Part shown: piece after piece, positions 22,631-31,076 of the stretch
How positions within the stretch are numbered: the stretch's first letter is position 1
How the letters are laid out: each line of letters begins with the position of its first letter
Source: an uncultured Opitutia bacterium
Lineage (GTDB): Bacteria > Verrucomicrobiota > Verrucomicrobiia > Opitutales > UBA953
Length of the DNA stretch: 35,051 bases
NCBI GenBank assembly: GCA_903860195.1
Contig: CAIOPO010000039.1
Location: forward strand, 1-35,051
Direction: 5' to 3'
Position numbers and translations under genes: made by a program
The notes under the pieces: generated by a model
The model's input: only the letters and a program-made list of their open reading frames with translations
Told to the model about the DNA's origin: nothing
Databases searched by the model: none

Positions 22631-23704
22631 TCAGAGCTCGATGGTGCGCCCTTCGCGGAAGGAACGGTCGGCGGCGTGCACGATGCGCATGGAGTTGACC
22701 GCGTCGTCCATGTGCGCGGTCAGGTCGAGGTCCTCCCGGACGGCCCGCTCGAAGTAGGCCTGCTCCCGCTCGCACAGGCCGTCATGACCCGGATCGGCCT
22801 CCGTGGGCACGACCTCGTCCGGCTTCAGGAACTTGCCGTCCGGTCCGAGCGCGGCGTGGTGCACCTTGAGCGCCTGGGCGGCGGAATGGGAGTCGACGTC
22901 GGCGGAGTTGCCGGCCTGGGCGGCCTTGCCGGCCACGATGGAGACGCAGCCCCTGGGTCCGATGACGTCCTTCACGAAGAAGGCCTCCTCGGACATCATG
23001 GGGCCCCACCCGGCCTCGTACCAGCCGACGGAACCGTCGGCGAAGGTCACCTGAAGCTGGCCGTAGTTGATCTGGCCCGCCGGCATGTCCTCGGTCAGCC
23101 GCGCGCCGATGCCCGAGACGCGCACCGGACGGCTGCCCGTCATCAGGCACATGATGTCCACGTAGTGGACGCCGCAGTCGACGACGGGGCTGCAGCTCTG
23201 CAGCAGCGCGCGATGGGTCTTCCACATGTCGCCGAAGCTCTGCTGGTTGAGGTTCATCCGCATGACGAGCGGCTTGCCGAGCTTCTGGACCGTGGCCACG
23301 AACTGCGTCCAGGCGGGATGGTGCCGCAGGATGTAGCCGATGACGACCTTGCGCTTCACGGCCTTGGCCTTGGCCACGATGCGCTCGGCCTCCTCGACGG
23401 TGACGGCGAGGGGCTTCTCCACGAACACGTGGCAGCCGGCGTCGAGCGCGGCGACGGCGTATTCGGCATGGGTGTCGGGATAGCTGGAGATGGAGACGGC
23501 GTCCGGCTTCGTCGTCCGGAGCGCGGCGTGGAAATCGCCGAACTCTGCGTAGCCGCCGCCGAGTTCGGCGTTCAGCTTCGCGCGGGATTCGGCCGAACGG
23601 GTGACGAGACCGACGATCTCAAAGCCGGGCAGGCGGTGGTAGGCGAGGGCATGGGACCGGCCCATGTGGCCGGCGCCGACGCAGAGGACGCGTATCTTCT
23701 TCAT
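22631..23704 (-). CDS. GFO/IDH/MocA family NAD(P)-dependent oxidoreductase
   Basis: A 357-residue protein with an N-terminal Rossmann fold (IRVLCVGAGHMGRSHALAY), the family's catalytic EKP lysine in HVFVEKPLAVTVEEAE, and the second-domain motif DCGVHYVDIMCLMTG with the conserved Asp/His. Members oxidise sugars, inositols or glycosides. No twin-arginine signal is present, so it is cytoplasmic. It lies 7 nt after the sulfatase and 2 nt before gluconokinase, which supports a shared sugar pathway, though the substrate cannot be read from sequence. Confidence 0.9.
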   Translation of the reverse strand: MKKIRVLCVGAGHMGRSHALAYHRLPGFEIVGLVTRSAESRAKLNAELGGGYAEFGDFHAALRTTKPDAVSISSYPDTHAEYAVAALDAGCHVFVEKPLAVTVEEAERIVAKAKAVKRKVVIGYILRHHPAWTQFVATVQKLGKPLVMRMNLNQQSFGDMWKTHRALLQSCSPVVDCGVHYVDIMCLMTGSRPVRVSGIGARLTEDMPAGQINYGQLQVTFADGSVGWYEAGWGPMMSEEAFFVKDVIGPRGCVSIVAGKAAQAGNSADVDSHSAAQALKVHHAALGPDGKFLKPDEVVPTEADPGHDGLCEREQAYFERAVREDLDLTAHMDDAVNSMRIVHAADRSFREGRTIEL

Positions 23705-25362: not shown

Positions 25363-26217
25363 ATGCGCTTCGCCAAGTATCACGCCCTCGGCAACGACTA
25401 CCTCGTGCTCGAGCCGAAGGACTGCCCCGCCCTCTTCGCGGCCGAGGCGGTGCGCAAGGTCTGCCACCGTCACTACGGACTGGGCTCGGACGGAATCCTC
25501 TACGGACCCATCGCGCGTGCGGACGGACTCATCGGCCTGCGCATCCTGAACCCCGACGGCTCGGAAGCCGAGAAGTCGGGCAACGGCATCCGCATCTTCT
25601 GCCGCCATCTTCTCGAAACCGGCCGGGTGCGCGAGGGCCAGGAGTTCCGTCTGCACACGCTCGGCGGAGTCGTCGGTTGCGCGGTCTTCGAAGGCGGGCG
25701 CCGCATCAGGGTCGAGATGGGAGGCGTCTCCTTCCGCGCCCCGCAGATTCCGCACGTCGGACCCGACCGCGAGGTCCTCGGCGAGGAGATCACGGTCGCC
25801 GGCCGCACTTTCCGCTACTGGTCCGCGACGGTGGGCAACCCCCACTGCGTCATACCCGTGGACGAGCTGACGCCCGACCTGGCCCGCACCTACGGACCCC
25901 ACCTCGAGGTGCATCCCAACTTCCCGAACCGCACCAATGTCCAGTTCATGAAGGTCGTCGACCGCCGGAACGTCCGGATTGAGATCTGGGAGCGCGGGGC
26001 GGGCTACACCCTCGCCTCCGGCTCGTCCTCCTCCGCCTCGGCGGCCGTGGCCCGCAAGATGGGCCTGGTCGACGCCGACGTCACCGTGCACATGCCGGGG
26101 GGGCAGATTAGTATTGGCATCGGACCGGACTACTCCATCGTGATGACCGGACCGACGACCCCGGTGGGCATCTTTGAGATGCACCCCGGAGTACCGGACC
26201 AGGACGTCGCCCTCTGA
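25363..26217 (+). CDS. dapF: Diaminopimelate epimerase homologue with both catalytic cysteines replaced by serine
   Basis: A 284-residue protein with the two-fold DapF layout and typical N-terminus (FAKYHALGNDYLVLEP). In the canonical enzyme, two cysteines (73 and 217 in H. influenzae) act as the acid-base pair. Here the first site reads EKSGNG with Ser72 and the second TLASGSSSS with Ser219, so both are serine. Tyr215 also replaces the Glu of the usual GET. Carboxylate-binding residues look kept (E210-R211, N11, GNPHC, PNRTN). Canonical DapF converts LL- to meso-diaminopimelate for lysine and peptidoglycan. The enzyme may be a serine-based epimerase, act on another substrate, or be inactive. 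The gene symbol is by homology only. Confidence 0.75.
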   Translation: MRFAKYHALGNDYLVLEPKDCPALFAAEAVRKVCHRHYGLGSDGILYGPIARADGLIGLRILNPDGSEAEKSGNGIRIFCRHLLETGRVREGQEFRLHTLGGVVGCAVFEGGRRIRVEMGGVSFRAPQIPHVGPDREVLGEEITVAGRTFRYWSATVGNPHCVIPVDELTPDLARTYGPHLEVHPNFPNRTNVQFMKVVDRRNVRIEIWERGAGYTLASGSSSSASAAVARKMGLVDADVTVHMPGGQISIGIGPDYSIVMTGPTTPVGIFEMHPGVPDQDVAL

Positions 26218-26294: not shown

Positions 26295-29186
26295 ATGGCG
26301 GCACCGGCGCCGTTACCCAATATCTCAGAAGACGACCTGATCGACCTGGCCGGCGGGGCGACCGTGCTCCAGGCGAAGACCCTGGTGCGTCAGGGCAAGG
26401 TGCGCAAGGCCGTCTGGAAGGCCCCGAACGTCGAGGCGCTCGTGGAGGACGCCAAGGGCAGCCGCGAAGCCCGCTGGAACCTGCGCTCGGTGACTTTCCA
26501 GCGCAACGAATGCGGATGCGACGTCTCCCTGGTGCAGCGCAAGCTGTGCGTGCATTCGGTCGCGGCCTACCTCGCCCTCGCCGTCAAGGAAGGACGCATC
26601 AAGCTCGAGGAGGAGCCGGCGCCGGCGCCGAAGCCCGCCGAGAAGCCGGCGGAGAAACGTCCCGCCGCCGAGGCCGCCGCGGGTCCGCGCCTGCGCTCGA
26701 TCAGCCTCTCCAACCGCAAGGGCACCCCGATCGAGGTGCGCTTCATCATTCCGCCGAACATCGCCACCGCCGCCCAGCGCGACGAGATCATCTGCCGCCT
26801 CGAGCTGCGCGTCGAAGGCGTGCAGGTGGCGCCCGAAAACCTCGACCGCGGCAAGGCCTGGAACATCGAGCCGGAGACGGTCTTCTTCCTGGCGATCCTC
26901 GAAAACCTCTGCAACGGCAAGCTGCAGGGCATCCTCCCCCTCACGCGCCGTCACCTGCGCCAGCTCCTCTCGGTCGGCAAGGGGCTCTCCATCTTCCGCA
27001 TGGCGAACGCGCCCGAAGCCGCCCTCGCGTGGGAGGGCGACCGTCTGGCCGGCGTGCATGCGCATCTGGACGAGCCCGATCCGACGCCGCAGCCCGTCGC
27101 CGCCGGCGACCCCGAGGAGGACGGCGACGAGCAGGAGGTGCGCTCCACCGACCGCGGCCGGGAGGACAAGGTCTGGCTCGACGGGTCGATGAAGTGGCTG
27201 CGCGTGCGCCTGCCCCAGCAGTCCTCCGGCCCCGTGGCCGAACTGCGCGAAGTGCTGAAGCGGGGCGGCTTCACCCTCGAGACGGCCACGCGCGAGTGGT
27301 ACCTCGCCGGCACGATCCAGGTGCTCAACTTCCTGGCGCGGCACCACCGGCTCCTGCTCGAGCAGAACGAGTCCTACTTCTCGCACAACCTGAACAACTC
27401 CCTCAACAAGGTGCAGCTGGCCAAGGCCCGCTGCGACGCGGCCGAGGCCGAGGACGGATTCAAGTTCGCCGTCGGCATCGATCCCGAGGGCAAGTCGCCG
27501 AAAGTCATCCAGGAGGCGCTCTCCAGCGGGCGCATGTTCTTCTACACCGACCACGGCCCGCGCCTCATCACGCCCGAGCTCCTCGAGTCCATCCGCAACG
27601 CCCAGCGCCGCATCACCGGGGACGCCAAACGGGACGTCGACCTGGACCTCGAGCTCAAGATCGGCTACGCCGACCTGGCCAGCGCCGACGCCATCGCCGA
27701 GGAGCTGCAGGCCGCCTTCGCCCCGCCGGAGACCTGGTCCAAGCGCTCCGCCGCCATCCGGAACCTCTCCAAGCTCCAGCCCGCCCCGGTGCGCGCCGAG
27801 CTGGCCGCCATGCTGCGCCTCTACCAGCAGGTCGGGGTCGCCTGGCTCTGGCACGTCCATTCCAGCAACCTCGGCGGGCTGCTCGCCGACGAGATGGGCC
27901 TCGGCAAGACCGTCCAGGCGCTGGCCTTCATGGAGGCGCTCCGCACGCACCGCAAGGAGGACGGGCCCTGCCTCGTCGTCTGCCCCGCCTCCCTGGTCGA
28001 GAACTGGCGGCGCGAGGCGCGACGCTTCACTCCCGGCCTGCGGACGCTCGCCCACCACGGCCAGGCCCGCGTGGTCTCCCAGGAGTATCTGGGCAAGTTC
28101 GACCTGGTGATCACCTCGTACGGCACGCTGGCGCGGGACATCGGCGCCTTCTCGCTCATCACCTGGGGGGCCGTGACCTGCGACGAAGGACAGAACATCA
28201 AGAACCCGCGCTCCCAGGCCGCGAAGTCGGTCAAGCAGCTCATCGCCAAGGGCCGGTACATCCTGACCGGCACGCCGGTGGAGAACTCCCTGGAGGACCT
28301 CCGCTCGCTGTTCGGCTTCCTGATGCCGGGCTACCTCCCGAAAGCGCAGGAACGTCTGACCGGCGAGGACCGCAAATGGCACGACGACCGCCTGCTCCAG
28401 ATGGCCGCCCCCTACATCCTGCGTCGTTCCAAGGCGGCGGTCGCGCCCGAACTCCCGCCGAAGATCGAGCAGCTGATCTACTGCGACCTCGAGGACGCCC
28501 AGAAGAAGCTGTACGACGAAGTGCAGGAGACCATCAGCAAGGAGATCTTCGAGATGGAGATCGGCGGCGCCAAGGAGAAGGACGTGCGCATGCAGGCCTT
28601 CAAGCTGCTCACCCGCCTGCGTCAGACCTGCGCCGACCCGCGCATCCTGGATCCCAAGCTGGAGGAGACGGACTCCGCCAAGCTGCAGGCGCTCCTGGAA
28701 CTGCTCGAGGAGTCCAAGGACGCCAATCACCGGCTGCTGGTCTTCTCTACCTTCGTCTCCGCGCTCCAGCTCATCCGCGAAGCCCTCGAGGAAAGGGACA
28801 TCCCCTTCTGCTACCTCGACGGCTCGACCACGGACCGCCAGGGGGTCTGCGACAAGTTCAACGGCACCCCCTCCATCCCGGTCATGCTCATGTCCCTGAA
28901 GGCCGGCGGCACGGGCCTGAACCTCACGGGGGCGGACACGGTCGTCCATTTCGACCCCTGGTGGAACCCCGCCGCCGAAGCCCAGGCCACCGACCGGGCC
29001 CACCGCATCGGCCAGACCCGGACGGTCACCAGCATCAAGCTCATCGCGGCCGGCACCATCGAGGAACGGGTGATGGACCTCCAGAAGGGGAAGTCGGAGA
29101 TGTTGCGCAAACTGCTCAGCGAGTCAGATTCTGTCTCGTCCTCCCTCTCCCTTGACGACATCAAGGAGCTCCTGCGCAAGGACTGA
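26295..29186 (+). CDS. SWIM zinc finger / SNF2-family helicase-like ATPase
   Basis: A 963-residue protein. A SWIM zinc finger CGC...CVH (C73, C75, C85, H87) lies near the N-terminus, followed by an Ala/Pro/Glu linker (about 102-125). A large middle region leads to the SNF2 ATPase. This has motif I DEMGLGKT (532-539), motif II DEGQ (630-633, usually DEAQ in this bacterial group), TGTPVENS and a C-terminal helicase domain with HFDPWWNPAAEAQ and RAHRIGQTR (901-909). It is a DNA translocase of the bacterial HepA-like SNF2 group, likely involved in transcription or chromosome remodelling. No nuclease or methylase partner is adjacent, so a defence role is not supported. tatC starts 5 nt downstream. 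Confidence 0.9.
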   Translation: MAAPAPLPNISEDDLIDLAGGATVLQAKTLVRQGKVRKAVWKAPNVEALVEDAKGSREARWNLRSVTFQRNECGCDVSLVQRKLCVHSVAAYLALAVKEGRIKLEEEPAPAPKPAEKPAEKRPAAEAAAGPRLRSISLSNRKGTPIEVRFIIPPNIATAAQRDEIICRLELRVEGVQVAPENLDRGKAWNIEPETVFFLAILENLCNGKLQGILPLTRRHLRQLLSVGKGLSIFRMANAPEAALAWEGDRLAGVHAHLDEPDPTPQPVAAGDPEEDGDEQEVRSTDRGREDKVWLDGSMKWLRVRLPQQSSGPVAELREVLKRGGFTLETATREWYLAGTIQVLNFLARHHRLLLEQNESYFSHNLNNSLNKVQLAKARCDAAEAEDGFKFAVGIDPEGKSPKVIQEALSSGRMFFYTDHGPRLITPELLESIRNAQRRITGDAKRDVDLDLELKIGYADLASADAIAEELQAAFAPPETWSKRSAAIRNLSKLQPAPVRAELAAMLRLYQQVGVAWLWHVHSSNLGGLLADEMGLGKTVQALAFMEALRTHRKEDGPCLVVCPASLVENWRREARRFTPGLRTLAHHGQARVVSQEYLGKFDLVITSYGTLARDIGAFSLITWGAVTCDEGQNIKNPRSQAAKSVKQLIAKGRYILTGTPVENSLEDLRSLFGFLMPGYLPKAQERLTGEDRKWHDDRLLQMAAPYILRRSKAAVAPELPPKIEQLIYCDLEDAQKKLYDEVQETISKEIFEMEIGGAKEKDVRMQAFKLLTRLRQTCADPRILDPKLEETDSAKLQALLELLEESKDANHRLLVFSTFVSALQLIREALEERDIPFCYLDGSTTDRQGVCDKFNGTPSIPVMLMSLKAGGTGLNLTGADTVVHFDPWWNPAAEAQATDRAHRIGQTRTVTSIKLIAAGTIEERVMDLQKGKSEMLRKLLSESDSVSSSLSLDDIKELLRKD

Positions 29187-30221: not shown

Positions 30222-31076
30222 ATGCGCCTCCTGCTGATCCTGGCCCTCACCGCCTCCCGGCTCTCCGCCCAGGAGACCTCGCTCTTCGGGAAGAAGCCTT
30301 CCGCGACGACCGCGCCGGAGCCCGCCGCCCCCGCCACGACCATCGGCGCCTCCGCCCCGGCCGACGGCCCGGACGACGCCGCCGACACTTCGGTGGTCAT
30401 CACTCCGTTCAAGCCCTTCGCGCAGCCCGAGGCCAAGGAGACGCGGACGTTCAGCCTGGCCAAGATGAACCGTCCGCTCGCCTTCGAAAGCACGCGGGAG
30501 CTCCAGCGGCTCTTCTCGGCCTTCATGCTGCAGCACGTCACGGATGCAGGCAGCGCGGGCTTCGCGCGCGCGCCCGGCCCGATCACCACCATCGAATACG
30601 TCGTGCAGCAGGACCTGGGCGACGGACGGCTGCTAGTCAAAGCCAACTGGAACGCGTCCGCCGACGGACGGCTTCCGGCGGCCACCGAGGCCTTCGCGGT
30701 GATGATGCCCGAAAAGGCCCCCGCGGTCGGGGAGAAGGGCACGGCGGTCGTCGCGAACGTCGGCATGGTTGCCGTGCGCTTCACGCCGACGTTCGCTCCG
30801 CTGGCGGGCCGCAGGCTGACGATGCGCCGCGAGGCCTTCATCGAATGCGCGCCCCTCACGGACGGCTCGGCCGGTCTCCAGAAGTTCGTCGACCTGGTGC
30901 GCAGCGGATCCGAGTTCTCCGTGTTCACCGCCGAGAAGTTCCCCTGCAAGACCTGCGGCGGCCTCGGCTTCACGCGCGAGGCCCAGAAGGGCAAGCTCGA
31001 GGACAAGCGCATTCCCTGCACGGTCTGCGAACAGGGCAAGGTGACGGTGCGGATCGAGACGAAGTTCACGCCCTGA
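30222..31076 (+). CDS. Exported protein with DnaJ-type CxxC zinc motif pair
   Basis: A 284-residue protein with a short signal peptide (MRLLLILALTASRLSAQE) and an Ala/Pro/Asp-rich region to about residue 70. A mixed alpha/beta middle of unknown type follows. At the C-terminus are two CxxC motifs, CKTCGGLGF (C242, C245) and CTVCEQGK (C266, C269). Their CxxCGGxG spacing resembles one half of the DnaJ cysteine-rich zinc domain. I cannot place the rest. The 4-nt gap from tatC suggests one transcript. A zinc-binding or redox-active exported protein is plausible but unproven. Confidence 0.7.
   Translation: MRLLLILALTASRLSAQETSLFGKKPSATTAPEPAAPATTIGASAPADGPDDAADTSVVITPFKPFAQPEAKETRTFSLAKMNRPLAFESTRELQRLFSAFMLQHVTDAGSAGFARAPGPITTIEYVVQQDLGDGRLLVKANWNASADGRLPAATEAFAVMMPEKAPAVGEKGTAVVANVGMVAVRFTPTFAPLAGRRLTMRREAFIECAPLTDGSAGLQKFVDLVRSGSEFSVFTAEKFPCKTCGGLGFTREAQKGKLEDKRIPCTVCEQGKVTVRIETKFTP

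Follow-up and report, generated by a model that had tools for sequence, protein, structure and literature searches.

Diaminopimelate (DAP) epimerase, DapF, is a two-base epimerase that works with a cysteine thiol and thiolate, and it is a drug target. In the window, which is the whole stretch of 35,051 nucleotides from an uncultured Opitutia bacterium that was analysed here, one open reading frame encodes a protein that is recognizably a DapF but carries serine at both catalytic positions. The question raised by this locus is whether such a protein can be the working epimerase of its cell, or whether the substitutions mean an artefact, another substrate or another cell wall. The earlier note, made from the sequence alone, had described this reading frame, and its description was correct in every particular that was checked. 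The gene is located as follows:

25363 to 26217, + strand: Ser/Ser-type dapF, 284 aa, from ATG to TGA (TIGR00652, PF01678, AlphaFold2 model)

The protein scored 215.1 bits against the DapF equivalog model TIGR00652 (cut-off 114.65) and 166 bits against PF01678, its sole Pfam match, whose cut-off of 34.7 was exceeded in both halves. The AlphaFold2 model (pLDDT 92.5, pTM 0.87) has the two-domain fold expected of a DapF, and the closest solved structure was that of a cyanobacterial DapF (9mro, TM 0.89/0.91). Membership of the proline racemase family was rejected, since only PF01678 matches and the structures of that family have 13-18% identity, well below DapF. Identity with the HisR/CntK histidine racemases was also rejected, since the protein has a Ser/Ser pair and retains the DAP residues, while CntK (6jis) showed 16% identity and a TM of 0.66. 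Its score, fold, substrate site and context make the protein a DapF, whereas its catalytic pair sets it apart from the canonical ones, and it is filed here as a variant of DapF.

The phmmer alignments with solved DapFs placed EKSGNG on EMCGNG or AQCGNG and GYTLASGSSS on GITLACGTGA or GETQACGSGA, which puts Ser72 and Ser219 directly on the cysteines, as had been claimed. The acid/base pair of two catalytic cysteines that defines a canonical DapF is thus missing, with Ser72 and Ser219 instead. The catalytic positions and three clade-specific neighbors, counted in 140 Ser-type and 40 Cys-type sequences, are the following:

25399 to 25401, + strand: Tyr13, clade-specific, Tyr in 140/140 versus Phe in 36/40 of the Cys-type (GNDF)
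25573 to 25575, + strand: Lys71, clade-specific, Lys in 138/140 and Ile in 2/140; Met, Gln or Asn in the Cys-type (38/40 Met)
25576 to 25578, + strand: Ser72, codon TCG, at catalytic Cys73 (H. influenzae) or Cys83 (C. glutamicum); Ser in 140/140
26005 to 26007, + strand: Tyr215, clade-specific, 140/140; in the Cys-type the Glu of GxGET, or Ile, Val or Asn
26017 to 26019, + strand: Ser219, codon TCC, at catalytic Cys217 (H. influenzae) or Cys221 (C. glutamicum); Ser in 140/140

Canonical DapF (EC 5.1.1.7; H. influenzae, E. coli, C. glutamicum; TIGR00652) and the Ser/Ser-type protein share the fold (TM up to 0.89), length, DAP-binding residues, glycine-rich motifs and place in the DAP pathway. 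The differences, beyond the catalytic pair itself, are GAGYT for GxGET (the change from GAGET had been read correctly), a Lys ahead of the first catalytic position, Tyr13 and Ser222 where canonical DapF has Phe and Gly, and Ile for the third Cys of CGNGxRC. Across the clade, the residues that differ from the Cys-type include Tyr6, Tyr13, Lys71, Ile78, Gln194, Tyr215 and Ser222. Helices are predicted at 73-85 and 220-232, so that in the model each serine would sit at a helix N-terminus, as the catalytic cysteines do.

The substrate site was compared with that of CgDapF, in which DAP is contacted by N15, N74, G84, N85, N159, N194, E212, R213, G222 and T223 (PMC5296763). Nine of these ten contacts are invariant in all 140 Ser-clade sequences, and the equivalent of T223 is Ser (134) or Thr (6). 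The retention of Glu210-Arg211 and of the Asn motifs (N11, N63, N74, N159 and N192 are all present) had likewise been noticed earlier, and stands. The residues with assigned roles in CgDapF (PMC5296763) are:

25549 to 25551, + strand: Asn63, equivalent to Asn74 of CgDapF, in the recognition sub-site for the L-end of DAP; 140/140
25837 to 25839, + strand: Asn159, equivalent to Asn159 of CgDapF, recognition sub-site; 140/140
25936 to 25938, + strand: Asn192, equivalent to Asn194 of CgDapF, recognition sub-site; 140/140
25990 to 25995, + strand: Glu210-Arg211, equivalent to Glu212-Arg213 of CgDapF, contacting the amino group and carboxylate of DAP; 140/140

The genome of the window (G000; 2.1 Mb, 209 contigs, 85% complete) was searched with PF01678 and TIGR00652, and no second DapF, including a Cys-type one, was found in this 85% complete assembly. 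Since up to 15% of the genome may be missing, congeners were examined for DapF copy number, and exactly one hit was present in each of the eight with at least 90% completeness. Within the limits of this assembly and the eight congeners, the premise that the genome has no other DapF is borne out. The pathway genes dapA, dapB and lysA are present in G000, as is an LL-DAP aminotransferase, DapL (NF004937, 635 bits, cut-off 585). A negative result with TIGR03542 was not taken as absence of DapL, since that model represents the plant type and the NF004937 match was found. Neither DapD nor a clear DapE was found in G000, and no ddh (TIGR01921) scored above the cut-off there; the one ddh candidate was a 20-bit fragment match to a neighboring GFO/IDH oxidoreductase (22631-23704) and was rejected. 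MurE of G000 carries DNPR, the meso-DAP motif of this enzyme. Of the genes for which the earlier note had proposed a genome search, a second Cys-dapF and ddh were not found, while dapL and murE were present. DapL yields LL-DAP from tetrahydrodipicolinate, whereas MurE and LysA need meso-DAP, and therefore an epimerase is required in G000, where the Ser/Ser-type DapF is the only candidate found.

The genes around it in the window (sulfatase, SNF2 helicase, TatC, prenyl synthase) are functionally uninformative, and dap genes are not adjacent to it in this genome. Elsewhere, rows with a Ser-type dapF run dapF-dapA-dapB in L057 and L069 and dapB-dapA-dapF in L081, and dapL lies directly before the gene in L059. 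Two neighbors in the window may be recorded here. The SNF2-family helicase (963 aa, 26295-29186, +) has an SCO1167-type model as its nearest, with a score far below the cut-off of that model, and a 284-aa open reading frame downstream of the TatC-like gene (30222-31076, +) is without Pfam or NCBIfam match. In a complete Opitutales genome with DapL and Ser-type DapF (G040), MurE (L172) has DNSR, versus DNPR in most.

The Ser/Ser pair is not confined to this genome. All 29 aligned congeners have the same residues, as do other families of the order, and among all sequences collected in which both sites were covered, 140 were Ser/Ser, 40 Cys/Cys and none mixed. At least 585 relatives were confirmed in the named genome collection, the best 80 of which all have KSGNG with GYTLASG or GYTMASG. 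The taxa listed for them comprise Opitutales, Limisphaerales, Methylacidimicrobium, Cyanobacteriota, Planctomycetota, Myxococcota and other former Deltaproteobacteria, as well as Chloroflexota, Armatimonadota, Bacillota and others. Metagenome-assembled genomes make up the majority, exceptions being Westiellopsis prolifica and the complete genome of IMCC26134. In trees calculated with both sites masked, all Ser sequences fell on one side of a single branch, with an SH-aLRT support of 99 (85 rows). When long branches and odd compositions were left out (78 rows), the support was 100/99, and the branch was recovered in 100% of 200 bootstrap trees. The Ser-type proteins thus do not group inside the Cys/Cys DapFs but constitute a separate single clade in the unrooted tree. 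The two independent changes of the earlier note are no more than a possibility, since both changes fall on one branch and no Ser/Cys intermediate was found to order them; none was present among 20 low- or intermediate-scoring members of the phylum that were fetched, in which f78/f81 and the small-genome families were Ser/Ser and the remainder Cys/Cys.

The codons at Ser72 were AGY in 73 and TCN in 67 of the 140 sequences, and those at Ser219 were AGC in 15 and TCN in 125. At both sites the codon has switched between AGY and TCN while serine was kept, unlike what would be expected of a drifting site. Within the genus, dN/dS of the gene was 0.06-0.15. Even the fast-evolving Ser-type DapFs of 0.9-1.3 Mb Opitutales genomes (L046, L047, L212 and L213) retain both serines. 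The single clade, the unvarying residues, the purifying selection and the occurrence in many phyla strongly support the proposal that this is an evolved Ser/Ser subfamily and not decay. An assembly or read artefact, or a decaying pseudogene, might be suspected in a window from a 209-contig, 85% complete assembly, but this explanation is refuted: the residues recur in the congeners, in other families and throughout the 140 sequences, which come from independent assemblies including the complete IMCC26134 genome, so that they are neither a read error nor a one-genome quirk, and a dN/dS of about 0.1 speaks against decay. The Ser/Ser DapF is a single, deep-branching, widespread subfamily that is apparently undescribed; no paper on a Ser/Ser DapF or Ser/Ser epimerase was found in open-access PMC text. 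The four fast-evolving proteins are carried by genomes G042, G048, G358 and G304, of which G042 keeps its DapF though no MurE match over the cut-off was obtained, hinting that lysine supply alone maintains the gene there.

Indirect evidence on function came from a survey of the phylum (381 genomes, 95% completeness filter), in which nearly all members of the order had a Ser-type DapF and 80 genomes were tested for ddh. The two steps that Ddh bypasses are precisely those of DapL and DapF, and the joint loss of both where ddh is present is therefore a prediction of an active Ser-type DapF. Ddh was found in 18 of the 20 genomes without DapF versus 2 of the 60 with DapF (52 Ser-type and 8 Cys-only; Fisher p ~1e-13), and within the order in 8/10 without DapF versus 2/48 with the Ser-type (Fisher p ~1e-6). 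The genomes are related and these tallies are not phylogenetically independent, so that, for the order, they amount to roughly three independent displacements. One lies in the window's own family (f1), where six g22 genomes have ddh and no DapF, compared with g1, g23 and g24. Another lies inside g17, where G052 has ddh and no DapF while G297, G307 and G319 have the Ser-type. The third lies inside g30, with ddh and no DapF in G402, while G164 still has ddh, Ser-type DapF and DapL together. The NF004937-type DapL is absent from the ddh genomes of the order that lost DapF, and present in most of their sisters with the Ser-type (exception G329 of g24). Twelve members of the order, for all of which the residues were read, have only a Cys-type DapF, which is consistent with the Cys-type replacing the Ser-type in the same job. 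Both types are present in G449 (family f8; L227, L238), possibly as a replacement in progress or as contamination. In two Opitutales genomes, G249 and G330 (the latter a single contig), no DapF, ddh or NF004937-type DapL was found, a state for which displacement does not account.

Taken with the pathway and the rows of dap genes, this displacement makes a role in the conversion of LL-DAP to meso-DAP the most likely one, and we consider it quite probable that the product of this gene, from a Ser/Ser subfamily of DapF, is the diaminopimelate epimerase on which the cell relies, although the LL-DAP epimerase activity itself is inferred. In the proposed scheme, DapL would convert tetrahydrodipicolinate to LL-DAP, the Ser/Ser-type DapF would invert one alpha-carbon to give meso-DAP, and this would be inserted into peptidoglycan by MurE and decarboxylated to lysine by LysA. 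Ser72 and Ser219, at their helix N-termini, would act as the acid/base pair in place of the thiols, perhaps tuned by clade-specific neighbors such as Lys71, Tyr13 and Tyr215, which is a guess without distances from the model. The pair is chemically unexpected, since single Cys-to-Ser changes in HisR greatly reduced turnover (PMC11602996) and Cys-to-Ala changes in CgDapF abolished activity (PMC5296763). The closest precedent for a catalytic serine in the superfamily is a Ser/Cys 4-hydroxyproline epimerase solved with substrate, but the partner of the serine in that characterised racemase is still a cysteine (PMC4113996).

Other readings were also weighed. The protein could be an active DAP epimerase whose bases are Lys71, Tyr215 and Tyr13, the serines having merely a positioning or hydrogen-bonding role. 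These residues and Tyr6 are nearly or fully invariant in the Ser clade and different in the Cys-type, but the two sequences with Ile at position 71 include L046, the only DapF of its genome, while both serines never vary, and in the model it is the serines that lie at the helix N-termini where Cys-type enzymes have their catalytic cysteines. This is a variant of the preferred reading, with which it overlaps in confidence, and although it remains a possibility, we think it rather unlikely. It is more doubtful still that the protein is an enzyme of DapF fold for another amino acid, or an inactive relative, with meso-DAP coming from an unknown enzyme. Racemases for histidine or O-ureidoserine do exist among DapF-like proteins, and a Cys-to-Ser change usually hinders or kills activity. 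However, the DAP-recognition residues are all retained, the protein is the sole DapF in genomes with DapL, MurE and LysA and lies in dap operons of other lineages, and it vanishes together with DapL where ddh arrives.

The earlier note had offered two consequences, that meso-DAP is made by new chemistry or that the wall uses LL-DAP or another diamino acid. The former, through a Ser/Ser enzyme, is favored by the pathway, the operons and the displacement by ddh, with the chemistry inferred, and the latter is disfavored. A protein inactive for DAP and a wall built with LL-DAP, or with ornithine or some other diamino acid, would agree with a report on Lacunisphaera and Opitutus terrae, strains whose DapF type is unconfirmed, in which DL-DAP was not detected by TLC in three Lacunisphaera strains and GC/MS gave low DAP together with ornithine in the Lacunisphaera strains and Opitutus terrae (PMC5303756). 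DAP was present in Opitutaceae cells, and no statement on the stereochemistry of the DAP of Lacunisphaera or Opitutus terrae was found (PMC5303756). A Ser-type DapF occurs in IMCC26134 and in records labelled Opitutus or Opitutaceae. Against an LL-DAP wall, MurE of G000 has DNPR and LysA is present, and the swap for ddh or a Cys/Cys DapF in sister genera is sensible only if the product is meso-DAP. This makes such a wall improbable to a degree beyond either of the preceding alternatives.

A working meso-DAP epimerase thus remains the preferred reading, and it can be set beside known systems. The 4-hydroxyproline 2-epimerase B9JQV3 (Avi_0518; proline racemase family; PMC4113996) is likewise a cofactor-independent two-base epimerase of DapF fold with a catalytic serine, but has only one, with Cys as the other base, a different substrate and low identity. 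The trans-3-hydroxyproline dehydratase B9K4G4 (Ser/Thr; PMC4113996) also lacks a catalytic cysteine at either position and uses Ser as a base, but it catalyzes a dehydration, which needs one base and does not invert the carbon. The histidine racemases HisR and CntK and the O-ureidoserine racemase DcsC have DapF-like folds in which substrates changed and Cys/Cys was kept, whereas here the bases changed and the DAP recognition residues were kept. Ddh (TIGR01921) also makes meso-DAP and supplants DapL and the Ser-type DapF in sister lineages, but is an unrelated NADPH enzyme that bypasses LL-DAP. That an entire lineage relies on a cofactor-free Ser/Ser acid-base pair to invert an unactivated amino acid at the alpha-carbon, and that this is the sole source of meso-DAP in most Opitutales, is a claim on which we are evenly divided. 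If true, this enzyme would be the first racemase/epimerase with the DapF fold found in nature to use hydroxyl groups alone.

In canonical DapF, activity is normally lost when either cysteine is replaced, and a natural, single-copy, widespread Ser/Ser DapF that is genomically interchangeable with Ddh and Cys-type DapF challenges the requirement for a thiol. Annotation pipelines conceal the substitution by naming such proteins simply DapF, and thiol-directed DapF inhibitors would be expected to miss them. The subfamily also bears on the old puzzle of the failure of TLC to detect DL-DAP in Opitutae walls. Outside Verrucomicrobiota, the Ser-type occurs beside a Cys-type DapF in cyanobacteria (L077, L103) and in G069, G070, G079, G087 and G064, with two Cys-type and one Ser-type DapF in Westiellopsis. 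This coexistence suggests transfer or a second role in those lineages, and the role of the Ser-type there may consequently differ.
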